Part shown: one piece after another, positions 1,365 to 33,807 of the stretch
Numbering within the stretch: position 1 is the stretch's first letter
Layout: each line of letters opens with the position of its first letter
Origin: Planctomycetota bacterium
GTDB lineage: Bacteria; JAJVIF01; JAPKYR01
DNA: 38,274 bases
Assembly (NCBI GenBank): GCA_030614715.1
Contig: JAUWTM010000019.1
Span: forward strand, 1 to 38,274
Direction of reading: 5' to 3'
The notes under the pieces: model-generated
Databases searched by the model: none
What the model saw: the letters and a program-made list of their open reading frames with translations, nothing else
Told to the model about the DNA's origin: nothing
Program-made: the position numbers and the translations under genes

Positions 1365-4300
1365 ATGAACCGCGTGCCCGTAGTAATCACCTTTATGTTG
1401 ACAGTAATAATGCTGGCGGCTGTAGCCGGACTTGTCAGCTGCTCGCATTCAGCGGGGACCGATCCGGTAACCGTACCAGATCTGACCGGACAAGCCGACC
1501 CACCGTCCAGCCCATCGGGCGAAGGCATCACGATGGGATATTTCCAGTTCGAATGGGACGAGTACGGCAATGTCACGGTTGAAGAGGCCGACGCACCTCG
1601 TGGTGCCGACATTAACGTAACAGCCTACGCGTCGATGATCATCGAGGACTTTTTCTTCGATGACGAGACCCGTAACTGGTACATCACTGCGACAATCAGA
1701 AACATCTCCCCGTTCACGGGATACGATGTATGGGCAGTATTTCACTCCCTGGGTAATAAATTCGTGACCAACCAGGACGGCTTCCTGTGGGCGCTTCCGC
1801 CCATCTTCCCGAACCCGACCCGGTGTGCGTTTATCGCGTACGGCAAGGATCAGCCTGACAGGGTGTTCCCGCCGATGTTCCAGGATACCCGCACGATCGT
1901 AATCCACCAGCCCGAGGGAATTCCGAAGCTGGCCCCGATCGGGTTCTGGATCGATGCGACCATCAATCCGAGGGTAACACCCGGTGTTGAGAACCTGATG
2001 GTCGAGCCGATCGATGACACCAACTACCACCTCACCGGTTTCGTCTGGGATCACCAGTCACCGTCGGAGGACCTCACGGTCTTTGCGGACTGTACGAATT
2101 TCAACGGACAGGGTTACGTCCAGATGTTCGATGACGGTCTACATGGTGACGGGATGCCCGACGACAGTATCTGGGGTGGAGATTTCGATGGCGATCCGGA
2201 GGACGGCCATTACGTCATCACCGTCTACGCGATGGACCCGCAGCAGAACCAGGGTGAAAATGACGTTGGGTTCTGGCACGGCGACGACGTACCGTGCGAT
2301 CTTCCAATCGAGCACTGGCCGTACGAGACTATCGACAAGGGCGAACACAGCGGAATCGATTACGAGCGATTCGAGGTCATCAATGACTGGCTGGCATGGG
2401 AAATGCTCTGGCTTGAACACACGTCATGGATCTATCCGCCACCGCCGATTCCACCGATCAATTTCGATATGCACTCGGTAATCGGAGTCTGGATCGGTCC
2501 GCGACCGTCGAACAATCATCATGCGACAATCGTGGATATCCAGTTCGATCCGTGCGAAGAACTGGTTACAGTTTTCTACGAATACACACCTTACACCGCT
2601 TGTGGACCACTGGATGTAATGACCGATCCGTTCCACATCGTTGTGGTTCCCAAGTATGAATCCGAAACATATTTCGTCGGTGAGGAAGTACCATGTCCGG
2701 GACCGCCACCGGAATGCATCGAGGAAATTCCCTGGGAAACTGTAATACAGGGATTCCATTCAGCGATCAAGGAGCCTTACGAGCTTCGGATCTCAAACTG
2801 GGACCAGTTTGAGGATCTGTGGCTGGCACAGACACAGAACACGTACCCTCCGCCTCCTGTTCCGGAGATCAATTTCGAGGACATGGACCTCATCGCGATT
2901 GGAATCGGTGAGCGTCCGACCAGCGGATTCGAGTGCGTGATAAAGGAAATATGCTGGCTGGAGAACCAGACAATCGGAGTATTCTACAAGGAGAGGATAC
3001 CGGGTCCGGACTGCGATGTTTACCACGTTCTGACCCAGCCGTTCCACTGGGCGGTTATTCCGAAAATCGAAGCCCCGGTAGAATTTTTCAAACATAACGA
3101 GGTCTACAACTGCGGTCCGGGAGACTGCGACGAGCCCCAGATGTTCTGGCCGATCGATCAGGGCATGCATACCGGGCATGAGGCCGGCAACTTTGTCTTC
3201 AAAAATCACTATGAATTCTTTGAATTCTGGAACGTTCACAAGCCGGGAGAACCGATGCCACCTGTTATGTGGCAGGAGGACATGGTCCTCGCGATGCTTA
3301 TCGGTGGACGACCGTCGACCGGGTACTTTGTTGAGACCAACGAGGTCTGCCTGAACACTGATCCCGACACCGGCGCGCTTCGCATGGACGTCAAGTTTAC
3401 AGAGAACATTCCCGGTGAGGACTGCATCGTAATGTGGATCGGCACAACGCCGTACCAGATTGTCGTCGTTCCAAGGTTCGAGGGCCCTGTTTTCTTCCAT
3501 CATCAGGAGCACGTATATGATTGCCCGTCGGGTGACTGTGATCCTGTTGAATTCTGGCACAAAGCTGACGGTCATAAATCCTGCGAACCCCAGGGACAGA
3601 CACCGATATGGAATCCCCAGCACCTTCTCGACATCTGGCAAGGTATCTGGTGCTATCCCGGGGAGCTTCCACCGGTACCTCCGATCAATTTCGAGGAAGA
3701 ATTACCCTTCCTAATTCAGATAACAAACAGACCCACGTCCGGATTTTACGTAACAACTGACGATGTCTGTGTGAACTTTGAGGAAATGTACATAGAGGTC
3801 AACTGGACTCTCTGGGAACCCGGTCCGAACTGTATAGTCGAACATGTAATAACGGAACCGTGGACCATTGACTCAATTGGACGCTTCCCGGGCATAGAGG
3901 AATTCGACTGGAACTTTATCGGGCACGAAGAAATGTACGAATGCCCGACCGGTGAATGCGTACCTGTTGATTTCTGGGACAAGGCCGACGGCGACAGATC
4001 CTGTGAGCCTCCCGGGCAGTTCCCGATATACGGTCCGGATGCATTCATGGATGTCTGGCACGGTATCTGGTGCTGGGAGCCCCCGATTCCTGAACCGCCT
4101 TCGATTTTCTGGGAGGAAGAGGTTCCGTTCATCGTCCAGCTGGGTAATATGCCGTCGACAGGTTTCTACGTGACCATCGATGAGGTCTGTGTTAACGAGG
4201 TGGAGATGTACGTCGAGGTCGACTGGACCGTACACGTCCCGGCTCCCGGTTGCCCTGTAGAGGACATTCCAACCCAGCCATGGGCAATCGCTACCATTGA

Positions 4301-5198
4301 GGCCTTCGATGGATTACACGATTTCGACTGGTTCTTCAATGGAAACGAGGAAGTCTATGAATGCGGTGACTGCGTGCCAACGGATTTCTTCAAAATCGCG
4401 GAAGGCGATGAATCCTGCGCTGAAACCGGAGAATTTGGGTGGCAGCATATACCCCCGTACCAGGAGTACTGGTGGGATTTGAACTGCTACGATCCTGATT
4501 CCGGGGACCCGCCGCCACCGCTGCCCGAGGAACCACCTGCATCCGGTGACAACATAATGCACCACTTCGCTGTCCAGCTCGGTGAGCAGCCTACAAACGG
4601 GTACTACATCACTTTCGACGAGGTCTGTTACGAGGGCTGCGACGTGTACATCGAGTACACGATTAACATCCCCGGTCTAAATTGCGATGTCGACCAGGTC
4701 GTAACAACGCCATGGGCGGTCGGTGCTGTCGAACTGCCCCCTGTCTACTGCCTGTGGTCATGGCATTTCACGGCATCCGAGGAAGTCTACGACTGTCCGG
4801 ACGATCCCTGCTTCGATTTCGAGCAGATAGCGGGTAACAACCACTTCGGTGGTGAGGAGCCGGGCGGATGGTACCTCGACAACCAGCAGGACTTCTACCT
4901 CTACTGGGTCACGTATCACCCGGGACTACCGATGCCCTACGTAAACTGGGATGGCGGCTGGGGAGCATACGCGGTTCACCTCGGCATGCGTCCGACGACC
5001 GGTTTCGAGGTCGAGGTATTCGAGGTCTGCCCTGCGGACGATCCGTTCGGCGTCGCGGTCAGATGGGTCGAATGGATACCGGGTCCGACGTGTAATGTCG
5101 AGCCGGTTCACACATTCCCGTGGACATTGATAACAATGCCGCTGGTGGATATGCCGTATTACGATGAAGGTTACGAGGAAATCTACCAGTGTGACTGA
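1365..5198 (+). CDS. Large lipoprotein with seven tandem PrcB-like repeats
   Basis: A 1277-residue predicted lipoprotein. The ATG at 1365 is chosen over an upstream in-frame ATG at 1239 because AAGGAGACGAGG sits just before it and the protein then opens with a textbook type II signal (MNRVPVVITFMLTVIMLAA...LVSC). Residues about 60-310 form an unrecognised beta-rich region with a motif (DDGLHGDGMPDD) like those in Ig-like choice-of-anchor domains. From about residue 311 to the end there are seven repeats of roughly 137 residues, starting near 311, 450, 587, 724, 864, 1002 and 1148. Each has the order WD-Trp region, PPxPxINFEEE, (L/I)GxRPTxGFxV, PGxxC...TxPW and a closing C-x(2-4)-C linker. The RPTGG-like turn and PG...T.P core match the PrcB C-terminal domain (PF14343), known from the Treponema dentilisin complex. 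Repeat 1 has a degenerate turn (RPSNNHH). The function is probably surface binding or protein complex scaffolding; that is inference. Confidence 0.75.
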   Translation: MNRVPVVITFMLTVIMLAAVAGLVSCSHSAGTDPVTVPDLTGQADPPSSPSGEGITMGYFQFEWDEYGNVTVEEADAPRGADINVTAYASMIIEDFFFDDETRNWYITATIRNISPFTGYDVWAVFHSLGNKFVTNQDGFLWALPPIFPNPTRCAFIAYGKDQPDRVFPPMFQDTRTIVIHQPEGIPKLAPIGFWIDATINPRVTPGVENLMVEPIDDTNYHLTGFVWDHQSPSEDLTVFADCTNFNGQGYVQMFDDGLHGDGMPDDSIWGGDFDGDPEDGHYVITVYAMDPQQNQGENDVGFWHGDDVPCDLPIEHWPYETIDKGEHSGIDYERFEVINDWLAWEMLWLEHTSWIYPPPPIPPINFDMHSVIGVWIGPRPSNNHHATIVDIQFDPCEELVTVFYEYTPYTACGPLDVMTDPFHIVVVPKYESETYFVGEEVPCPGPPPECIEEIPWETVIQGFHSAIKEPYELRISNWDQFEDLWLAQTQNTYPPPPVPEINFEDMDLIAIGIGERPTSGFECVIKEICWLENQTIGVFYKERIPGPDCDVYHVLTQPFHWAVIPKIEAPVEFFKHNEVYNCGPGDCDEPQMFWPIDQGMHTGHEAGNFVFKNHYEFFEFWNVHKPGEPMPPVMWQEDMVLAMLIGGRPSTGYFVETNEVCLNTDPDTGALRMDVKFTENIPGEDCIVMWIGTTPYQIVVVPRFEGPVFFHHQEHVYDCPSGDCDPVEFWHKADGHKSCEPQGQTPIWNPQHLLDIWQGIWCYPGELPPVPPINFEEELPFLIQITNRPTSGFYVTTDDVCVNFEEMYIEVNWTLWEPGPNCIVEHVITEPWTIDSIGRFPGIEEFDWNFIGHEEMYECPTGECVPVDFWDKADGDRSCEPPGQFPIYGPDAFMDVWHGIWCWEPPIPEPPSIFWEEEVPFIVQLGNMPSTGFYVTIDEVCVNEVEMYVEVDWTVHVPAPGCPVEDIPTQPWAIATIEAFDGLHDFDWFFNGNEEVYECGDCVPTDFFKIAEGDESCAETGEFGWQHIPPYQEYWWDLNCYDPDSGDPPPPLPEEPPASGDNIMHHFAVQLGEQPTNGYYITFDEVCYEGCDVYIEYTINIPGLNCDVDQVVTTPWAVGAVELPPVYCLWSWHFTASEEVYDCPDDPCFDFEQIAGNNHFGGEEPGGWYLDNQQDFYLYWVTYHPGLPMPYVNWDGGWGAYAVHLGMRPTTGFEVEVFEVCPADDPFGVAVRWVEWIPGPTCNVEPVHTFPWTLITMPLVDMPYYDEGYEEIYQCD

Positions 5199-14419: not shown

Positions 14420-15547
14420 ATGAAGGTCAAACTATCCCTTAAGGAATTTACACGTCATTTACAGGTCGCGATGCGCGCGATCGCCGCCCGTCCCACGCTT
14501 CCCATCCTGAATTACATGCTGATGGAAGCTGAAGGCGACAGGGTCGTGCTGACCGGGTACGACCTGGAGGTCGGAATCAGGGTCCGGTTCCCTGCAGAGG
14601 TTATCGAGGCCGGAAGTGTCGCGGTCAAGGCTAAAACCCTCCATGAAATCGTCTCGCAGATCCCCGCAGAGGACATCGAGTTCGAATTCAATGATATCTC
14701 CAGGATCAACCTTCGCGGCGGACGCAGCGAGTTCACGCTGGTCGGCAAGCCCGGCGGGGAGTACCCCAGGCTGCCTGATGTCGGCGAGGAGGAAGAGGTT
14801 CTCACTCTCCCGATCGAGCGGTTCACGACTAACCTTCGCAGAACTATCTTCGCCAGCAGCATGGACATGCCGAAGAATTACACGTCGGGAGTCCTTCTTA
14901 ACCTTGCGGAGGGCATGCTCCAGATCGTGGCGACCGACGGGCGCCGCCTTGCAATGGCTACGGATAAAATTGACACAAGGGAAGGTGGCGCGAAGGCGGT
15001 ACTGATCCCGTCCAAGACCATGCACGAGCTCTCAAGAATACTCAGCATGGGCTGGAAGGGGGATCTCGAGCTGCATCTCGCCGAAAACCTCGCCCAGTTC
15101 AAACTCGGTGATGACGGCGAGGTCGAGATTATCACTCACCTGCTCGATACACCGTATCCTGATTTCGAGAAGGTCATTCCCGAGTCATCCGAGGGCAAGT
15201 TGACCATCGACCGTGAACGGTTGATCGGCAGCCTCAGGCAGGTAGGTATACTGGCACGTCAGCAGGACGGCCGCGACATGGCTGTCCTTGAATGCAACGA
15301 TGACTACCTCACGATAAGTGCGAAAGCCGAGAGCGAGGGCAAGGCCGAGGTTAAGATACCGATCGAACGTGATGGTGATCCCCTGAAGGTCGCGTTTAAC
15401 TACCAGTACCTGCTCGATCCACTGCTCGCATTCGAAGACGACAAGCTGACCCTGTCGTACTCCGGTTCGCTTGAGCCGGGAATTATCACCATCCCGTCCG
15501 ATGACAGTTACACCTACGTGGTAATGCCGGTCAGGCTGCCTGAATAG
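14420..15547 (+). CDS. dnaN: DNA polymerase III sliding clamp (beta subunit)
   Basis: A 375-residue protein of normal length for the beta clamp, a ring-shaped dimer that tethers polymerase III and other factors to DNA. The three DNA-clamp domains are about residues 1-120, 130-245 and 248-375. Diagnostic stretches are RPTLPILNYMLMEA, LTGYDLEVGIRV, LVGKPGGEYPRLP and LQIVATDGRRLAMA, and the C-terminus TYVVMPVRL is the usual ending. GGAGGAGAG precedes the ATG. The gene stands alone here, away from dnaA and recF, with its own terminator; this dispersed arrangement is common in phyla outside the classic models. Confidence 0.97.
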   Translation: MKVKLSLKEFTRHLQVAMRAIAARPTLPILNYMLMEAEGDRVVLTGYDLEVGIRVRFPAEVIEAGSVAVKAKTLHEIVSQIPAEDIEFEFNDISRINLRGGRSEFTLVGKPGGEYPRLPDVGEEEEVLTLPIERFTTNLRRTIFASSMDMPKNYTSGVLLNLAEGMLQIVATDGRRLAMATDKIDTREGGAKAVLIPSKTMHELSRILSMGWKGDLELHLAENLAQFKLGDDGEVEIITHLLDTPYPDFEKVIPESSEGKLTIDRERLIGSLRQVGILARQQDGRDMAVLECNDDYLTISAKAESEGKAEVKIPIERDGDPLKVAFNYQYLLDPLLAFEDDKLTLSYSGSLEPGIITIPSDDSYTYVVMPVRLPE

Positions 15548-15864: not shown

Positions 15865-16605
15865 ATGGATAAAAGCATTAGCAAAACAGATATAGCCATT
15901 TTCTGCGGCATTGCCGCGTTGATCCTGTTCGGACACACCTTACTGGTCAGCGGACCTGCGAATGCGTCGGGACTGGCACCGCTCCTGATGCAGGGAGCCG
16001 GATTTTCGTACATGCCCATTGTGAACCAGAATGCGTCGCAGCTCGAGTACAACGCACGTGACATGCTCTACACCCTCGGTTCAGCTCAGCTCAGCTACGC
16101 CACGAATGTGACCAACGGTAAATTTGCTGAGCTTCAGGAACTCAAGAATATTGGATACCTCCAGCCAAACGTCACTGGCGGACTGCTGGTCGGGGAATAC
16201 AGCATTACTTTCTACATGCCAAGGAACAAGAGGGGATTCACACTCGTCGCAGAACCGGACAACTTCGATCTCAGGGCGTTCATGATCACCGAAAACCAGG
16301 ACGTAGTTCTCATTACACCGACAGTTTTGCCCGATCCCACGGAAGCATGGGGGACGGTTCGTGCGATGGAATCCGAGGCGTTACACAACACCAACAGGTA
16401 TGATTACTTCCTCGGGATGCAGCTTCTGAGCTACGATCCCCCGCTCCAGATCAGGTTGAACGCGGAGCGGACAAGTTATTCGCTGCATTCATTGCTGGAG
16501 GGTGGTCAGTACGGCTTTACACTCGACGAATCCCTGGTGTATATTGATTCTTTCGCAAGTTATCTCGCTGGCGATACCCGTGAGTTCGAAAGTGATTCGT
16601 ATTAA
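15865..16605 (+). CDS. Exported protein with type IV pilin-like head domain (paralogue 1)
   Basis: A 246-residue protein from the ATG at 15865, chosen because the sequence then reads as a signal peptide (MDKSISKTDIAIFCGIAALI, cleavage near ANA-SG). An in-frame TTG at 15811 would add 18 residues. The segment at mature residues about 50-130 (ARDMLYTLGSAQLSYATNVT...GKFAELQELKNIGYLQP...YSITFYMPRNKRGFTLVAEP) matches the helix, loop and four-strand pattern of type IV pilin or pseudopilin heads. There is no prepilin peptidase motif (GFTLIE type), so it is probably released or anchored by other means. A second half of about 110 residues is of no recognised family. It is the first of four related genes and lies 9 bp before the second. 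No pilus assembly gene is nearby. Confidence 0.72.
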   Translation: MDKSISKTDIAIFCGIAALILFGHTLLVSGPANASGLAPLLMQGAGFSYMPIVNQNASQLEYNARDMLYTLGSAQLSYATNVTNGKFAELQELKNIGYLQPNVTGGLLVGEYSITFYMPRNKRGFTLVAEPDNFDLRAFMITENQDVVLITPTVLPDPTEAWGTVRAMESEALHNTNRYDYFLGMQLLSYDPPLQIRLNAERTSYSLHSLLEGGQYGFTLDESLVYIDSFASYLAGDTREFESDSY

Positions 16606-16614
16606 CGGATTTCC

Positions 16615-17355
16615 ATGGAAAAGCGACACCCTATGAACCACCGTTTGCCCTCCAGATTCGATATCCCAGTCTTTATTCTCATCCTGGTGCTGGTTGCTGG
16701 TGCAAATGTACTCTCTTTCAATCGAGCCAGTGCGGTTCCGGTCAGCCTGATGCAGACAGGCGGTGCGGTATTTGGATACTCGGGCGTTGAATATTCCGAT
16801 CCCGAGGATCGTTGCAGGGGAGTCCTGAGGTCGCTTGGGACGTCCCAGCTGGCCTACGCGACCTTCTACACCAACGGCCGGTACGGGACGTTCGATGACC
16901 TCAAGCTGTCGGAATTTATACAAGAGGATTACACTCTTACAAATATCGCTGAGGGTTACGAGGTGAGATTCTACCTTAACCGTCTTCACGATGACTTCAT
17001 AATTCTCGCGCTTCCGGAGGACGGTATGGGGCATTGTGGTTACATGATCGATGCTCGCCAGACGCTCATGGAAGCCTGGCTTGTCGAGATGGAGCAGCCC
17101 GAAGAGGAATGGTTCGTGATCATGGACGCCCAGAACGAGTCCATGGATGCCGCTGGTGAATATTACTGGCCGGTTGCGCTCCCGGGTTCACCCGATCCGC
17201 CGAAGGAATTCGATGTATTACTCAGTGAGGACCGTCAGGTGTTCATAATCAACCATGCACCGCCATTCACAGGTTCCTCACATGAGTATTTCTTCCATTC
17301 GGTGATGGATTTCATCCTGGTCGAAGTGTGGGAAGAACCCGAACCCAACGACTGA
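16615..17355 (+). CDS. Exported protein with type IV pilin-like head domain (paralogue 2)
   Basis: A 246-residue protein with a hydrophobic leader (FDIPVFILILVLVAGANVLS) and a likely signal peptidase I site near ASA-VP. The head domain is CRGVLRSLGTSQLAYATFYT...GRYGTFDDLKLSEF...YEVRFYLNRLHDDFIILALP, the clearest of the family. It is followed by a Cys-containing loop and a C-terminal region (about residues 165-246) with the phrase DAQNESMDAAGEYYW that recurs in paralogue 3 (DVQNESMSDDDEYVY). It starts 9 bp after paralogue 1, so the two are co-transcribed. The ATG at 16633 (MNHRLP) is an alternative start. Function is unknown; structural role in the envelope is a guess. Confidence 0.75.
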   Translation: MEKRHPMNHRLPSRFDIPVFILILVLVAGANVLSFNRASAVPVSLMQTGGAVFGYSGVEYSDPEDRCRGVLRSLGTSQLAYATFYTNGRYGTFDDLKLSEFIQEDYTLTNIAEGYEVRFYLNRLHDDFIILALPEDGMGHCGYMIDARQTLMEAWLVEMEQPEEEWFVIMDAQNESMDAAGEYYWPVALPGSPDPPKEFDVLLSEDRQVFIINHAPPFTGSSHEYFFHSVMDFILVEVWEEPEPND

Positions 17356-17449
17356 ATTTGAACCTATTTAGAGCCCCACGAGTCTTTGCATTGGGGACTT
17401 AGAGTCGATAAACTAACCATATTAAGAAGCTGATTCGGAGGTTTAATCA

Positions 17450-18178
17450 ATGAGGTTTCTCTCAAATCGGAACAATGTACCGTTATTTCTGCCGCTCGCA
17501 CTCCTGCTGATCATGTCGGGGTTGCTTTTCGTCAGCCCGGGAGCCAAAGCACAGGGACTGGAGGGTCTTGTGGACCCGTCCTCGAACGAGCATTTTGTCA
17601 GGACCGCTGTCGGCTGGATGGAAGCGTTTTACCCGCTGCAGACACAATATATCGACGGTCCTGGCGACGGAGAGTACGGCGATCTTGACGATCTCGTCGC
17701 TGCAGGATATTTCCCTCCGTATTTCACCAAGGAGGACATGGTCGACGGATACTTAATTGACTTCTATTTCAACGAAAATAAAACTGATTACGCAGTCGTT
17801 GTAACTCCGATGGAGAGGGAAGACCTGCCAGCGTTTTACGTGGATGCCAACAATGTTGTGATGGCTTTACCGTATATCGATACTGAGGGCGACTTCGGGC
17901 TGTTCGGTACTGTTATCGATGTACAGAATGAGTCGATGTCGGATGACGATGAGTACGTCTACCTCGACATGGACGATTACAGCGAACCCGACTTCGTTCC
18001 GGAAATGTACGTGAACGCAGCCGGAACCGATTACGTAGTGATGGATTTCCACGAAATGGATATCGGGCTTTTCGGTGCAGGTTGGGTCGCCTCAATCGAG
18101 GGCACATACATGGTTGTCGAGTACGATTACGAAATGGGTTACTCCAACGAGGAAATCATTGATTTTTCCGGACAATGA
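17450..18178 (+). CDS. Exported protein with type IV pilin-like head domain (paralogue 3)
   Basis: A 242-residue protein with a clear signal peptide (MRFLSNRNNVPLFLPLALLL, cleavage at AKA-QG). The head domain spans about residues 45-135 (VGWMEAFYPLQTQYIDGPGD...YGDLDDLVAAGYFPP...YLIDFYFNENKTDYAVVVTP) and is the most divergent. The acidic C-terminal half contains the shared NESM motif. GGAGG stands 9 bases before the ATG. A 94-bp gap separates it from paralogue 2 and a terminator follows, so it may share the upstream promoter. The protein is strongly acidic (many Asp and Glu), as expected of an extracellular or periplasmic protein. Confidence 0.74.
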   Translation: MRFLSNRNNVPLFLPLALLLIMSGLLFVSPGAKAQGLEGLVDPSSNEHFVRTAVGWMEAFYPLQTQYIDGPGDGEYGDLDDLVAAGYFPPYFTKEDMVDGYLIDFYFNENKTDYAVVVTPMEREDLPAFYVDANNVVMALPYIDTEGDFGLFGTVIDVQNESMSDDDEYVYLDMDDYSEPDFVPEMYVNAAGTDYVVMDFHEMDIGLFGAGWVASIEGTYMVVEYDYEMGYSNEEIIDFSGQ

Positions 18179-18200
18179 TTTGATCTGAAAGCAATTGTGA

Positions 18201-18239
18201 CGCCCTCTTCGACCTGTGGTCGGAGGGGGTGTTTTTTTT
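18201..18239 (+). terminator. Intrinsic terminator after paralogue 3
   Basis: GCCCTCTTCGACC pairs with GGTCGGAGGGGGT (one mismatch) and is followed by eight T residues. Confidence 0.85.
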
Positions 18240-18298
18240 GCTAATTACAGGTAATAGTGTAGGATTTATGTAAGGCAAGATTATGGAGGATCCACACC

Positions 18299-19576
18299 AT
18301 GGCAGGACGCCGAAGATTTTTTATTGAGTTCAGCTTTATCGTTGCACTGATTGTACTGATTGCTGGTGGACATCTCGTCAGCAGTTCGGGTGTAAGCGCG
18401 AGTCCTGGAACCCTGTTCGATCTGGGCAGGATCTTAAATCCACTTACGAAACAGGGAGAAATCGATCCGATCGATAAGTGCCGCACTACGTTAGCTGCAC
18501 TGGGAGCGAGCCAGCTTGCGTATGCACAGACGAATAACTGGCGGTACGGGAATTCACGGGATCTGAATAATTCACTGTCCTACGAACTTCAGCAGGCATT
18601 CTGGGGATCGCCGTACGGCTATTCGATTGGATGGTTCGTCAACAGGGATAAGTCGGATTTCCTGTACACGGCAACGGCTGTGGGTGATGTCGATCTCCAG
18701 GATTTCATGATCGATTCACGCCAGATGGTGATGGAGATCGAACCCGTAAAAACTGGCCTGGATATCAACCATTGGCTGTATCTTAATGAGCAACAGGAGC
18801 TTTCTATGCGGTATAACGGGACCTACTGGTGGTTCGAATCAGGTTCCAGTGCGTACCGTATCAGGTCATACCTTAATTTCAATCAGTCAGCCTACTGTTT
18901 AGTCCAAGACTATGAGTACGCTGGTAACTTCGAGCCCCTGAATTACGATTATGTTGAACTGATGTATATGTCCGAAACGTCAAATTTTTACATCGTGTTC
19001 CCGTCAGAAGTGCAGGTCGATATGTCAGTGGCATACAGTAACGCTGAAAACGCAAGGGGTACGCTAACAGCTATAGCGTCGAGCAACAGGGCGTACAGGG
19101 ATTCAAATCCGGGTGATGGGACTTACGGATCATTTTATGATCTCCTTGAGATGATGTATATCGCGATAGGTTACACTCCCGACACGATGGTGTCAGGTTA
19201 CACGCTCGAATGGTTCATGACCGAGGATAAGATGCTGTTCTCAGTCGTTGCGATCCCGACTGAATACACGGAATTCAATCCTGTCTACATGATCGACCAG
19301 ACAGAGGTCCTGAGAAAGCTGATTCCTGTCGCGACATACACTCCGGACAGTAATTATTCCGATATGCAGCACTCGGCCGATGAAATGATGAATGAAACAG
19401 GGTCGTACGGCTGGGACGTGGACGCTGAACTAACGGGATACGAGTCGGATATCGATATCTACCTGCTCCCGGAACACGACCAGGTCCTTTTGAAAATACC
19501 GGTGATCCACGGAGTAGATGATCTAGTGTACGTCTCATCGCTCGGACGATTTTATTCGACCGAGGTTGTCAGGTAG
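18299..19576 (+). CDS. Exported protein with two type IV pilin-like head domains (paralogue 4)
   Basis: A 425-residue member of the cluster with the module duplicated. The leader MAGRRRFFIEFSFIVALIVL has a likely signal peptidase I site near VSA-SP. Module 1 is at about residues 60-140 (CRTTLAALGASQLAYAQTNN...YSIGWFVNRDKSDFLYTATA) and module 2 at about 255-340 (ARGTLTAIASSNRAYRDSNP...YTLEWFMTEDKMLFSVVAIP). Each is followed by a spacer of about 90 residues. GGAGG precedes the ATG. It has its own terminator upstream and downstream and so is a separate unit or a read-through extension. The internal duplication shows that the family is expanding both by gene and by domain. Function is unknown. 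Confidence 0.74.
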   Translation: MAGRRRFFIEFSFIVALIVLIAGGHLVSSSGVSASPGTLFDLGRILNPLTKQGEIDPIDKCRTTLAALGASQLAYAQTNNWRYGNSRDLNNSLSYELQQAFWGSPYGYSIGWFVNRDKSDFLYTATAVGDVDLQDFMIDSRQMVMEIEPVKTGLDINHWLYLNEQQELSMRYNGTYWWFESGSSAYRIRSYLNFNQSAYCLVQDYEYAGNFEPLNYDYVELMYMSETSNFYIVFPSEVQVDMSVAYSNAENARGTLTAIASSNRAYRDSNPGDGTYGSFYDLLEMMYIAIGYTPDTMVSGYTLEWFMTEDKMLFSVVAIPTEYTEFNPVYMIDQTEVLRKLIPVATYTPDSNYSDMQHSADEMMNETGSYGWDVDAELTGYESDIDIYLLPEHDQVLLKIPVIHGVDDLVYVSSLGRFYSTEVVR

Positions 19577-19614
19577 TTTTCAGGCATATAAACCCCCGAA
19601 AATGGTACGATTTT

Positions 19615-19643
19615 ACCTCTGGTTCGTGGCCAGAGGTGTTTTT
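19615..19643 (+). terminator. Terminator-like hairpin that also masks the epimerase ribosome-binding site
   Basis: ACCTCTGG/CCAGAGGT with a 7-nt loop is followed by GTTTTT. It ends three bases before the ATG of the next gene, and the 3' arm (AGAGGT) is the only Shine-Dalgarno candidate for that gene. Read-through transcripts from paralogue 4 would be terminated or would have the start site sequestered. Confidence 0.75.
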
Positions 19644-29932: not shown

Positions 29933-30700
29933 ATGAGTAAAATACTTTCCATTTTCTTAGCAACATTTATGCTGCTGGCATTTGCTCTCGTGCCGGTAAT
30001 CGCACAGGAAGGCCCCGACGAGTGGGAGTCTAACGATGACTGGGAGCTTGCAGATGTGATCGAAGGCTACATCATTGAAGCTGAGATCGGTGACGATGAT
30101 GACGAGCACGACTGGTTTGTGCTGGAAGGCCAGGAGGGATATCATCCCACTTTCACGATCTACTTCGATGAGGATGAACTTGAAGTTGACTGGGAAATCT
30201 GGTCGGACGATGACGTCGTCGCATACCTGGATGACTGGGGTGCCCCGGAATCGATAACAGTGGATGTGCCCGGTGAATGTTACATCCACGTGTGGTGGTG
30301 GTCAGGTGAGGGTGAATACACTATCGAAATCGAACCCGAAGAAGATGACTGGGAGCCGCTCGATGACGACTGCGAAGGTCCGGATGAGTGGGAGCCCAAT
30401 GATGAAGACGGTCTTGCTGATGAGATCGATGGCTTTTTTATCGAAGGATATGCCTGCGAGGATGACGATGACTGGTTCGTCCTTGAAGGCCAGGAAGGTC
30501 GCAACCCGGAGATCACACTCTGGTACGATGAGGACGAGTGCGACATCGACCTCGAGATCTACTCCGGAGATGAGTGGGTAGGATCACTTACAGGTGTTGA
30601 CAGCCCTGACAGCGATGATTTCCGAGTTCCCGGTCTCTGTTACATCCACGTTTATGCGTTTGAAGGAGAGGGCTGGTACGAGATCGAAATCGAGCCGTAA
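29933..30700 (+). CDS. Acidic exported protein with two PPC-like domains
   Basis: A 255-residue protein with a signal peptide (MSKILSIFLATFMLLAFALV, cleavage at IAQ-EG). Two repeats, about residues 26-136 and 148-255, follow the pre-peptidase C-terminal (PPC, PF04151) layout: E(S/P)ND at the start, DDWFVLEGQEG in the middle, then strands (EVDWEIWSDD, DIDLEIYSGDEWVG) and a final CYIHVYAFEGEGWYEIEI. The protein is extremely acidic, with clusters such as DDDDEHDW, and may bind cations. GGAGGATCAG precedes the ATG. PPC domains usually sit at the end of secreted proteases as targeting or folding modules, but here no catalytic domain is present. It is first in a run of five such genes. Confidence 0.8.
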   Translation: MSKILSIFLATFMLLAFALVPVIAQEGPDEWESNDDWELADVIEGYIIEAEIGDDDDEHDWFVLEGQEGYHPTFTIYFDEDELEVDWEIWSDDDVVAYLDDWGAPESITVDVPGECYIHVWWWSGEGEYTIEIEPEEDDWEPLDDDCEGPDEWEPNDEDGLADEIDGFFIEGYACEDDDDWFVLEGQEGRNPEITLWYDEDECDIDLEIYSGDEWVGSLTGVDSPDSDDFRVPGLCYIHVYAFEGEGWYEIEIEP

Positions 30701-30730
30701 CGGTCCTTCTACTATCGAATTGAAAAAAAT

Positions 30731-30757
30731 CCCCGGACTGCAGTCCGGGGTTTCTTT
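30731..30757 (+). terminator. Intrinsic terminator after the two-domain PPC gene
   Basis: CCCCGGACTG/CAGTCCGGGG, a perfect 20-bp palindrome, followed by TTTCTTT. Confidence 0.85.
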
Positions 30758-30980
30758 ATACAGAAGGCTGACCATCGCGATCATAGATGTATCCCGGTGG
30801 TTTCCATAAGCCCTTTAGTGGAGTGTTCAAAATCATGAGGGTCATTAGCAGGTTGTAATGAGCAGGGATAGACCTTTCAGGATTAAAAGGTTAAAATATC
30901 CGAAATCAATCAAATGCAATGAAATTTAATGTATTCGTGATATTATTGCTCTAATCCCAAAGAGAGGACAGGAGAATTCA

Positions 30981-32141
30981 ATGAAAACCTTCTCAATCAC
31001 AATTGGCTGCATTCTTCTACTTCTATTCGCCCTTGCTCCGGTAATGGCGCAGGAAGGACCGGATGAATGGGAGTCAAACGACGACATGGACCTGGCTGAC
31101 ACGATCGATGGCTACATCATCGAGGGTGAGATCGGCCGCCATGGCGATGAAGACGACTGGTTCGTTCTCGAAGGCCAGGAGGGATACTTTCCCACAATCA
31201 CAATCTTCTACGACGATTACGACTGCGACATCGATGTTGAAATCTACTCCGACGACGAATATGTCGGTGGCCTGACAAGCGTCAACAGTCCTGATTCCGG
31301 TCAATTCGACATACCGGGTGTGTGCTACATCCACGTCTACATTTTTGACGGGCGTGGTGAATACACTATCGAGATCGAGCCCGGAGATGGTGGACGTGAT
31401 CGAGACCGAGATCGAGACCGTGACCGGGACGATGGTCGACGTGGCAGGGGCTGTGAAGGCCCCGATGAAAATGAGCCCAACGACTCAAGGCGCAATGCTG
31501 ATTTCATCGATGGCTACGAAATCGAAGGCTATGCCTGTGAAGGCGAAGAGGACTGGTTCGTTCTCGATGGCCAGGAGGGCTACTATCCCTACATCAACAT
31601 CTTCTACGATGACTACGAATGCGACATCGACGTTGAGATCTACAGCGACCGCGACCTCGTTGGTACCCTTTCAGATGTCAGCAGTCCCGACGGTGATGAA
31701 TTCGATGTAGAAGGCGAGTGCTACCTGATGGTCTACGCCTATGACGGCGAAGGCGAATACTACATCGAAATCGATCCGCAGGGCGATTACAACGGCGGTT
31801 ATGACGATGACTGCGAAGGACCAGATGAATGGGAGCCCAACGACGACATGGACATGGCTGATGGAATCGATGGATACATCATCGAAGGTTATGCCTGCGA
31901 AGGTGACGGCGACTGGTTCAGGCTCGAAGGCCAGGAGGGTACACGACCCGAAATCACGCTATATTATGATGACTATGAGTGTGACATCGATCTTGAGGTC
32001 TACTCCGGTGACGAGTACGTCGGTGGCCTTTCATCAACTTCTAGCCCGGACTCCGATGACTTCCGCGTCCCCGATGTCTGCTACATCTACGTCTATTCGT
32101 TCGATGGTGAAGGCTGGTACGAAGTCGAAATCAATCCGTAA
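30981..32141 (+). CDS. Acidic exported protein with three PPC-like domains
   Basis: A 386-residue homologue of the preceding protein with three domains at about residues 26-138, 162-275 and 281-386. The signal peptide is MKTFSITIGCILLLLFALAP with cleavage at MAQ-EG. Each domain has EPND or ESND, a DWFVLEGQEGY block (DWFRLEGQEGT in domain 3), CDIDVEIYSD and CYIHVY. Domains 1 and 2 are joined by a linker of alternating Asp and Arg (DRDRDRDRDRDD, about residues 144-155), unlike anything else in the window. It is separated from its upstream neighbour by a terminator, so it has its own promoter, not clearly visible (AT-rich 30900-30960). GGACAGGAG precedes the ATG. Confidence 0.8.
   Translation: MKTFSITIGCILLLLFALAPVMAQEGPDEWESNDDMDLADTIDGYIIEGEIGRHGDEDDWFVLEGQEGYFPTITIFYDDYDCDIDVEIYSDDEYVGGLTSVNSPDSGQFDIPGVCYIHVYIFDGRGEYTIEIEPGDGGRDRDRDRDRDRDDGRRGRGCEGPDENEPNDSRRNADFIDGYEIEGYACEGEEDWFVLDGQEGYYPYINIFYDDYECDIDVEIYSDRDLVGTLSDVSSPDGDEFDVEGECYLMVYAYDGEGEYYIEIDPQGDYNGGYDDDCEGPDEWEPNDDMDMADGIDGYIIEGYACEGDGDWFRLEGQEGTRPEITLYYDDYECDIDLEVYSGDEYVGGLSSTSSPDSDDFRVPDVCYIYVYSFDGEGWYEVEINP
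31393..31442 (+). repeat. Hexameric microrepeat coding for an Asp-Arg linker
   Basis: GAYMGN-type hexamers (CGAGAC, CGAGAT, CGTGAC) repeat six to seven times in frame inside the three-domain PPC gene and encode DRDRDR. It looks like a slippage-prone tract that lengthened the linker between domains 1 and 2. Confidence 0.7.
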
Positions 32142-32174
32142 ACATCGAAGCAGAATCTGACATTGAATCCAACA

Positions 32175-32199
32175 CCCCGGATTAAATCCGGGGTTTTTT
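32175..32199 (+). terminator. Intrinsic terminator after the three-domain PPC gene
   Basis: CCCCGGATT/AATCCGGGG with a single-base loop, followed by six T residues. The stem core is nearly the same as at 30731, suggesting a recurrent terminator type. The remainder of 32200-32376 shows no gene. Confidence 0.88.
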
Positions 32200-32376
32200 C
32201 TATGCTCCTGACGTGTAATCAGAGCGTGTATCAGGACCCAGACAATAGAACCCAGCCTTGCATTAAATCAATGTCGACTAATTCGTTCTGCCGGCATTGT
32301 ATACTATGGTAAATTAGTGTAAAATTGTGTAGCCTCCAATGTTGACCTTGACCTGCCCCTTGCCCGGAGGCATCCT

Positions 32377-32838
32377 ATGAAAAAATCGCTGTCTCTTGTA
32401 GTTATCTGCCTGATACTTGGCATGTTTCCTATTTTAGGCCTCAGCGTTCCTGAATCTGATACCGAAATTGAACCGAATGATACAAAAGATGAGGCAACTC
32501 AGATCCACATCCTGAGATTCTACGGGAATGTTGGCCTGGAGGGGGACACCGTTGACTGGTTCTTCATTCCTCAGATTAAAGGGGAATACGTGGAGATTCA
32601 CTTCGAGAAGGAGCCCGAGGATGCTCCAATCGATTTCGAGGTCTACAGTTACTACGATCTTGTCGGTGTGATCAGGTTGACGGATACGGACCAAATGTTA
32701 GATACCCAGATGCCGGGAAAGTGCTACATACGCGTCTCCAGCGAATCTGAATCGGGTGACTATTACAGGATAACAGTAAATGTACCGGTGGATAACGATC
32801 CCATCGCCGGCTGGCCCGCTTTTAGCTGCGGTCTATAA
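32377..32838 (+). CDS. Single PPC-domain exported protein (member 1 of 3)
   Basis: A 153-residue protein with a signal peptide (MKKSLSLVVICLILGMFPIL) and one PPC-like domain: TEIEPNDTKDEATQI, GDTVDWFFIPQIKGEYVEI, IDFEVYSYYDLVGVI, GKCYIRVSSESESGDYYRI. It is less acidic than the two- and three-domain proteins. GGAGG occurs nine bases before the ATG. It is followed after 23 bp by a paralogue of exactly the same length, so the three are an operon. No catalytic domain is present; the role may be surface coat or ligand binding. Confidence 0.78.
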   Translation: MKKSLSLVVICLILGMFPILGLSVPESDTEIEPNDTKDEATQIHILRFYGNVGLEGDTVDWFFIPQIKGEYVEIHFEKEPEDAPIDFEVYSYYDLVGVIRLTDTDQMLDTQMPGKCYIRVSSESESGDYYRITVNVPVDNDPIAGWPAFSCGL

Positions 32839-32861
32839 CTCTATGACCGGGAGGACATTCA

Positions 32862-33323
32862 ATGAAATCCATTCTGTCTGTCGCGATATTATGCCTGCTC
32901 CTGTTATCGATGCCGATTATGTCGGTCCTCGCAGAGGGAAATTCAGATGAAATCGAACCCAATGACACGCGGGAACAGGCGACTGAGGTTACCACGTACT
33001 TCGTCGATGGTGAGATAGGCGTAGATGGTGATGTCGAGGACTGGTTCACTGTCACAATATATGAAGTTGACCTCGAGCATAATTTCTATTTACTGGATGT
33101 CGAGGAGGGGCAGAGGGTCGATCTGGAAGTCTACAGCGACGAGAATGTAGTCGGGACGTCTGTTACCGGGGACACTCCAGGATTTGTGCAGTGCTATGTT
33201 CCGGGCACCTGTTACGTCCGGGTCCTCGGAACTGAGGGTCAGGGCAATTACAGGCTTTACATCGAGACCCCGGTGGAGATCTTTATGCCCGGAATAACAT
33301 CTAACGTCTGCTGCTGGGGATAA
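32862..33323 (+). CDS. Single PPC-domain exported protein (member 2 of 3)
   Basis: A 153-residue paralogue with signal peptide MKSILSVAILCLLLLSMPIM and cleavage near LAEG. The domain reads DEIEPNDTREQATEVTTYFV, VDGDVEDWFTVTIYEV, VDLEVYSDENVVGTSV and GTCYVRVLGTEGQGNYRLYI. It is closer to member 3 (shared EPNDTREQA, GVDGDVEDW and RVL.T.GQG) than to member 1. GGGAGGAC precedes the ATG and the next gene starts 22 bp downstream. Two Cys near the C-terminus (NVCCWG) have no counterpart in the larger PPC proteins. Confidence 0.78.
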   Translation: MKSILSVAILCLLLLSMPIMSVLAEGNSDEIEPNDTREQATEVTTYFVDGEIGVDGDVEDWFTVTIYEVDLEHNFYLLDVEEGQRVDLEVYSDENVVGTSVTGDTPGFVQCYVPGTCYVRVLGTEGQGNYRLYIETPVEIFMPGITSNVCCWG

Positions 33324-33345
33324 TTAACATACAGGAGAGGTAGAT

Positions 33346-33807
33346 ATGAAATCAACATTCACACTGGTAGTTCTCTTTGTAATTCTTCTTTCGTTTCCGG
33401 TAATGCGATCCTTCGCGCAGGATATTCCGTTCGAAGTCGAGCCGAACGACACAAGGGAACAGGCGCAGGAGTGCTGGTACGTGTCGGGTGAAATCGGTGT
33501 AGACGGCGATGTTGAGGACTGGTACAAAGTGTCCGGTCTTGATCCCGAAGAATACGTCAGTTTTAATCTTGTTTACGATACTGAATTGCAGAGGATTGAT
33601 TTCGAAGTGTACAGCGACACAAACGTGATCGCGACGACCGTGTTTGCGGAAAGTAATTCAATCGTGAGCACCCTGGTTCCCGGACAATGTTACGTACGTG
33701 TGCTTGCAACGAACGGTCAGGGTGTATACCAGCTATATGCAGACCAGGCCTACGATTTCTGCGGCATGCCTACTTATGTTGCATCTGAAGGCTGCAGTTT
33801 CTTCTGA
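33346..33807 (+). CDS. Single PPC-domain exported protein (member 3 of 3)
   Basis: A 153-residue paralogue with signal peptide MKSTFTLVVLFVILLSFPVM and cleavage near SFAQ-DI. The domain reads FEVEPNDTREQAQECWYVSG, VDGDVEDWYKVSGL, IDFEVYSDTNVIATTV and GQCYVRVLATNGQGVYQLYA. GGAGAGGTAG precedes the ATG. It ends the operon; the hairpin 30 bp downstream is mainly a terminator for the opposite strand but may stop this transcript too. Cys residues are more numerous (CWYVSG, FCGM, GCSFF) than in the larger relatives. Confidence 0.78.
   Translation: MKSTFTLVVLFVILLSFPVMRSFAQDIPFEVEPNDTREQAQECWYVSGEIGVDGDVEDWYKVSGLDPEEYVSFNLVYDTELQRIDFEVYSDTNVIATTVFAESNSIVSTLVPGQCYVRVLATNGQGVYQLYADQAYDFCGMPTYVASEGCSFF

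Follow-up and report, generated by a model that had tools for sequence, protein, structure and literature searches.

A four-gene cluster encoding type IV pilin heads behind Sec-like leaders in a Planctomycetota genome

The window analyzed here, a stretch of 38,274 nucleotides from a Planctomycetota bacterium (assembly GCA_030614715.1, contig JAUWTM010000019.1, hereafter C241), belongs to a draft genome (G000) of 4.29 Mb and 87% completeness. Four consecutive plus-strand genes, located between dnaN (14420-15547) and a gene for an SDR epimerase (19646), encode proteins that each consist of a hydrophobic leader, a module of ~90 amino acids (aa) and ~85-100 further residues, with gene 4 repeating this unit. 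We assign the module as the head of a type IV pilin, encoded behind leaders in which no prepilin site was detected. The genes and the two heads of gene 4 are as follows.

15865-16605, plus strand: gene 1, 246 aa; Sec-like leader with an ANA/SG site after residue 34, pilin head at ~63-148, C-terminal region
16615-17355, plus strand: gene 2, 246 aa; Sec-like leader with ASA/VP after residue 40, pilin head at 61-160, C-terminal region modelled with low confidence
17450-18178, plus strand: gene 3, 242 aa; Sec-like leader with AKA/QG, most diverged head at ~46-140, C-terminal region
18299-19576, plus strand: gene 4, 425 aa; Sec-like leader with VSA/SP, two tandem units of head and C-terminal region
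18476-18739, plus strand: first pilin head of gene 4; profile A2 E 8e-29 (own row in the profile), also matched by gene 2 alone
19049-19315, plus strand: second pilin head of gene 4; profile A2 E 9e-32 (own row in the profile), also matched by gene 2 alone

With gene 2 alone as query against its own genome, gene 4 was recovered twice (E 1.2e-19 and 2.9e-9) together with gene 1 (2.8e-14) and gene 3 (4.8e-8), confirming the cluster of four genes and five modules, two of them in the last gene, that had been proposed in the initial annotation. Gene 3, being outside profile A2, was still matched by it at a domain E of 8e-13. The three motifs by which the module had been recognized are, by reading, exact in gene 2 only; the first copy in gene 4 keeps the first two exactly, gene 3 and the second copy in gene 4 only YGxxxDL, and gene 1 holds near versions (LYTLGSAQLSYA, FAELQEL, and YSITFYMPRNKRGFTLVAEP). 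Scans of the four proteins against Pfam and NCBIfam gave no match at E<=1.

The proposed pilin-head fold was borne out by AlphaFold2 models and fold matches for genes 2 and 3, both presenting alpha1-C (residues 63-84 and 46-69, respectively) and an antiparallel beta-sheet in the same topology. Ten-residue means of the predicted local distance difference test (pLDDT) range from 64 to 95 within the gene 2 head, and genes 1 and 4 were placed as pilin heads by sequence alone. An alpha1-N stalk continuous with alpha1-C is absent from the window proteins: the hydrophobic stretch falls in the leader and a non-hydrophobic stretch, coinciding with low pLDDT at 35-60 in gene 2, divides it from alpha1-C. 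Fold comparison of the window heads with solved pilins yielded only ~5-16% identity, and a sequence search of the PDB with profile A2 returned chance matches only and no pilin, as might be expected if a head-like fold had arisen by convergence without pilin ancestry. Convergence is nevertheless very improbable, considering that the gene 2 query directly matches prepilin heads of its own genome at the sequence level, that the head occurs in a graded series of forms, and that the terminal part of the stalk (IPxLL..RR.AW) can still be recognized in that series. Judging from these similarities, the window heads almost certainly descend from pilins. The heads of relatives align to the second half of protein P0004.

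Leaders were classified by rule, i.e., a hydrophobic core followed by [AVS]xA. Past this core, genes 1, 3, and 4 hold one strict [A/V/S]xA site each (ANA/SG, AKA/QG, and VSA/SP) and gene 2 holds two (AGA/NV and ASA/VP, the second being the one annotated initially). A strict site was found in eight of nine Sec-class proteins tested out of ten (L050 being without, the G004 protein being left out), and the gene 1 orthologues present in G001 and G002, two other genomes of the phylum, keep an [AVS]xA-type site with differing letters. A six-frame search for N_methyl (E<=0.01) was empty on the window contig as well as on C203 and C179 of the same genome; in the six-frame search of five genomes, 28 N_methyl leaders were counted in the window's genome. 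In a register anchored on the head, all ten prepilins carry Gly at -35 and Glu at -30 (Glu5) vs. no Glu and three Gly in 29 other head proteins, this count of 39 proteins excluding L072 (G003:C1, frame starting at the head) and matches weaker than a domain E of 2e-9, which comprise most array prepilins and L073. With neither N_methyl nor a Glu in the fixed register, the window genes present no class III signal peptide (G/FxxxE) and are separate head genes with a rule-based leader of another class, in agreement with the original proposal of signal peptidase I-like leaders. They likewise lack the marks of the major pseudopilin GspG of the type II secretion system (T2SS), as no TIGR01710 match (NCBIfam, E<=1) and no N_methyl was found. 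On these leader features, export of the window proteins by Sec is very probable. The class III leader is what defines pilins, and reviews treat their heads as filament parts (PMC4471445, PMC10191384); because this leader was tested for and not found, the window proteins are not type IV pilins by definition, though the head is the same.

Wrong starts, frameshifts or decay of former prepilins could place the real leader upstream or in another frame, and gene 1 does have an in-frame upstream TTG start. Such an artifact is scarcely conceivable, however, given the empty six-frame search on all three contigs, the same kind of leader on the gene 1 orthologues of two other genomes, the ribosome-binding-like sequences 5' of genes 3 and 4 (by reading), and the four intact reading frames. 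Functional prepilin sites in homologues had been named at the outset as an observation that should undo the finding. Taken literally they exist, as C167 and C11 of the window's genome encode the head behind GFTLLE or GYTLLE; being prepilin leaders on the same head, they show where the heads originated and do not refute it.

Across five genomes of the phylum (the window's own and G001 to G004), strong A2 heads were found in all five, as were heads without a prepilin leader, occurring in Sec-exported, lipoprotein, transmembrane (TM)-anchored, polytopic or leucine-rich-repeat (LRR)-fused form, with leader classes assigned by eye (the N-terminus of the LRR protein L054 lying off its contig, L069 being cut at its 3' end, and L048 and L052 being uncertain). 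Four of the five also have a prepilin that the head profile matches strongly. In the window's genome, matches with a domain E <1e-11 comprised 11 leaderless proteins (12 heads) vs. three prepilins. Sec-leader forms are those of the window, G001:C171, G001:C280, G002:C436, G003:C162 (two heads), and G004:C1; lipoprotein boxes (ITGC and IAGC) are found in two genes on G002:C355, and forms with several TM segments on G001:C259, G002:C75 (three genes), and G003:C195. The single-TM form keeps the end of the stalk readable (IPSLLCMRRPAWQSRAKGTLR on C203 compared with IPSLLNARRAAWQSRAKGTLR in a prepilin), and the LRR fusion (G003:C91, supported by a Pfam LRR match) carries the head at its far end. 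Three of these loci are listed here.

G000:C203 6601-10226: L016, tandem array of six TM-anchored leaderless heads with ends W[DR]P[IV][LM]
G000:C179 3936-8199, minus strand: L018, leaderless TM-anchored pilin head
G003:C91 6200-7555, minus strand: L054, leucine-rich-repeat protein with a pilin head at the C-terminus

By reading, the L016 array is flanked by ABC transporter-like genes and an AAA ATPase-like gene, and the L018 head lies directly downstream of an apparent large serine/threonine kinase with TPR-like repeats. Weaker A2 matches were located at N_methyl-rich arrays (G000:C146, G001:C199, G002:C475, G003:C80, and G004:C1 near 1.57 Mb). A contig-cut GYSLLE frame of G002 (L088), not reported by the head profile, reads like the prepilins of C11 and C124. 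Outside the phylum, one of 285 genomes was matched, the match being an ordinary prepilin with a GFTLIE leader. A scan of the genome contig collection with one short pattern, which is not exhaustive and may omit the window's own genome, matched nine stretches, of which two loci were confirmed, both from this phylum. The lineage specificity initially suggested for the cluster is therefore upheld as a restriction to the lineage as far as sampled.

On a tree of 41 heads, built with the exclusions given above for the register count, leaderless heads adjoin prepilins of their own lineage. The Sec form of G004 and the prepilin whose gene immediately precedes its own are sisters (96/86), the tandem heads of G003 group with G003 prepilins (94/84), and within the window's family the prepilins are joined by the TM, polytopic, and lipoprotein forms (84/73). 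A single leaderless clade was rejected (approximately unbiased (AU) test, p 1.8e-36), as was a single Sec clade (p 1.8e-5), and the distribution of prepilins vs. all other forms needs eight changes. In the window's family, the nine Sec heads fall into a single, weakly supported group (84/41) in which some branches are very long. As the leaderless heads do not constitute one clade, class III leaders have been replaced repeatedly around one head. The C-terminus fits this picture of descent: 25 of 39 head proteins retain a final WxPxx (8/10 prepilins and 17/29 leaderless), which is missing from all eight members of the window's Sec group, their chains extending past the head.

The surroundings of the cluster were examined for pilus functions and for conservation of its place. 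In accordance with the initial annotation, no pilus gene was found among 19 window genes scanned with Pfam (a subset of the window's genes), and no pilus ATPase or prepilin peptidase was matched on the window contig. At the level of whole genomes, Peptidase_A24 was matched in the window's genome and in three of the five genomes overall; at E<=1e-5 no prepilin peptidase was found in G001 or G003, and a PilY1 search gave no match, neither did it in control genomes. In G001 and G002, both fragmented, no head is encoded in the ~1.5 kb after dnaN, which are taken up by different open frames; the SDR gene is on a separate contig from dnaN (still adjoining its ABC exporter in G002), and the gene 1 orthologues are located elsewhere. 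Neither of the two nearest genomes compared therefore carries an equivalent of the cluster at this position.

These observations bear on the possibility that the soluble heads act outside the filament as pilus accessories, decoys or regulators by binding pilins, minor pilins or the assembly machine. Homologous heads are prepilins in the same genome, so that head-head contacts could persist, and TfpY is described as required for pilus assembly while not being detected in assembled pili (PMC11841053). The absence of pilus genes from the window contig in the six-frame, ATPase/peptidase, and Pfam (19 genes) searches, together with a cluster position not shared with G001 or G002, argues against such a function, and a conserved contact is disfavored by the far drift of the window heads from prepilin heads in sequence and charge, making this explanation rather unlikely. 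The more specific roles put forward initially (decoy, minor adhesin or surface layer) were not supported, as no feature of the window or of related loci favors any one of them.

Two intrinsic-terminator-like hairpins accompany gene 4.

18199-18233, plus strand: hairpin in the gap between genes 3 and 4, 16 pairs with a T-tail
19614-19638, plus strand: hairpin 3' of gene 4

The first of them parts gene 4 from genes 1-3, making a single operon improbable; gene 4 is thus probably its own transcription unit, with five terminator-like sites found by the hairpin scan of the region vs. 3.0 in shuffles. As a separate matter, the C-terminal region was considered as a second, decayed head, which was not supported by hhalign of profiles A2 and A6 (probability 0.3%, E 0.22). 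Elsewhere in the window, positions 29933-33807 encode five very acidic exported proteins in succession (net charge of -15 to -35 per 100 residues). They resemble paralogues built from one to three copies of a module (xPND or ESND, followed by DWF), and the two that were scanned had no Pfam match. Positions 1377-5195 encode a large protein resembling a lipoprotein, in which five PrcB_C stretches occur. Two of the genomes contain a second, distant match to DnaN (31-32% identity), at G000:C154:21644-22516 and G001:C137:22474-23541.

The mature window proteins are strongly acidic (net charge -13 to -42, isoelectric point (pI) 4.05-4.39), ten other exported window proteins falling at pI 4.05-4.80 and ten prepilin heads being near neutral (net -1 to +3). 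Such acidity argues against a role of the window proteins in DNA capture and points to no ligand.

Taken together, we favor, with some reservation, the interpretation that the products of the four genes are type IV pilin heads without the filament-forming half, serving as non-polymerizing envelope proteins that reuse the head for binding. A true prepilin would have been duplicated, its class III leader and alpha1-N (Gly-1, Phe1, Glu5, and the hydrophobic stalk) would have been swapped for a Sec signal peptide, and alpha1-C and the four-strand head would have been retained with a new C-terminal region added. The product would be exported by Sec and, once across the membrane, processed by signal peptidase I. 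Cleavage of class III leaders takes place on the cytoplasmic face, that of class I and II leaders on the opposite one (PMC4471445), and a head behind a Sec leader would therefore be released beyond the membrane, unable to assemble. There it should fold as a soluble acidic head that could not enter a pilus, because it has no stalk to pack into the filament core; in pilins, alpha1 lies in that core and Glu5 forms a salt bridge with the next subunit (PMC10191384). The head may then bind in the periplasm or outside the cell via the ligand-binding surface normally shown on the filament. A binding function is a tentative suggestion, drawn by analogy, and our best guess, since pilin subunits are known to mediate adhesion (PMC10191384).

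Several observations weigh against parts of this interpretation. Concerning structure, the AlphaFold2 models rest on eight sequences each, and no confident model was obtained for the C-terminal region (~85-100 aa) of any unit. Concerning export, the evidence from leaders is rule-based with L050 failing the rule, and uncleaved anchors are possible; three of six cytosolic or membrane proteins tested also fall below pI 4.9, weakening acidity as evidence for export, and neither G003 nor G004 has acidic Sec heads, theirs being neutral or basic. Concerning history, the terminal branches leading to genes 3 and 4 are very long, the eight-row prepilin group requires seven changes, only two being forced by strongly supported branches, and the search of G002 (82% complete) yielded weak array matches but no prepilin matching the head strongly. 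A tip minor pilin without Glu5 is described (PMC10191384), so that loss of Glu5 alone is no bar to assembly, and no gene neighbors giving support to a binding role were found.

Beyond the window, there are about even chances that the pilin head is a general envelope module in this phylum, combined with class III, I, and II leaders, single or multiple TM segments or an LRR fusion through several independent leader replacements, i.e., one binding fold displayed both on pili and directly on the envelope. Cells probably use the detached head as a stand-alone envelope protein. Within five genomes the forms run from prepilins via TM-anchored proteins and lipoproteins to soluble heads, a natural progression that illustrates how a filament subunit can become a free-standing envelope protein and offers a natural test of head function without a pilus. 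Leader-based pilin searches miss most copies of the head in such genomes.

The nearest precedent is PilA-C of Geobacter (GSU1497), whose signal peptide we take to be of the Sec type. Like the window heads, it is a pilin head with a gene and a signal peptide to itself (PMC5174107, PMC11046646), and a split pilin of this kind, in which separately exported heads join a short stalk-only prepilin into a two-chain pilus subunit, has to be considered for the window as well. A Geobacter pilus structure contains a two-chain subunit of PilA-N (61 aa) and PilA-C (104 aa) (PMC11046646), GSU1497 carries its own signal peptide (PMC5174107), the window's genome has T2SSE-family ATPases and one Peptidase_A24 match, and a stalk partner could be missed in a genome of this completeness. 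The Geobacter pair is adjacent, however, with PilA-C being paired with the headless prepilin PilA-N and the fission placed in the loop after the helix (PMC5174107), whereas no N_methyl stalk was found on the window contig and alpha1-C is kept in the window heads; GSU1497-like proteins are described as holding consecutive antiparallel beta-sheets (PMC5174107). Neither an adjacent stalk-only prepilin nor fission after the helix is thus seen in the window genes. Moreover, 27 of the 28 N_methyl frames in the genome have at least 160 aa, the only short one (40 aa, C222) being cut by a contig end, and whether wild-type Geobacter makes a two-chain filament is disputed (PMC9207759). A split pilin is accordingly an unlikely explanation, the window heads differing from PilA-C by a stalk gene that was not found, the retained alpha1-C, several copies, tandem arrangement, and extra regions.

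Compared with other systems, the window heads share alpha1-C and the four-strand head with type IV pilins and minor pilins such as PilE, PilX, ComP, and TTHA1221, unlike which they are devoid of a class III leader, alpha1-N, and Glu5. Modular pilins, e.g., PilB of Streptococcus sanguinis, likewise join a pilin head to other domains (PMC10191384, PMC8179133), but there foreign domains are grafted on a complete pilin, whereas here the pilin head is the graft. PilJ of Clostridium difficile likewise has two pilin folds per chain (PMC4471445) and is described as a type IV minor pilin (PMC4471445), whereas gene 4 is without a class III leader. The Sulfolobus bindosome proteins show a similarly unusual pairing of leader class and exported domain in the reverse exchange, sugar-binding proteins carrying a class III leader (PMC4471445). 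In the accessible portions of the open-access literature, no pilin heads with class I or II leaders were encountered besides Geobacter PilA-C. Relative to these systems and to the initial annotation, for which the lipoprotein, TM, polytopic, and LRR forms as well as the separate gene 4 unit were invisible, the new part is the setting, namely repeated leader replacement around one head.

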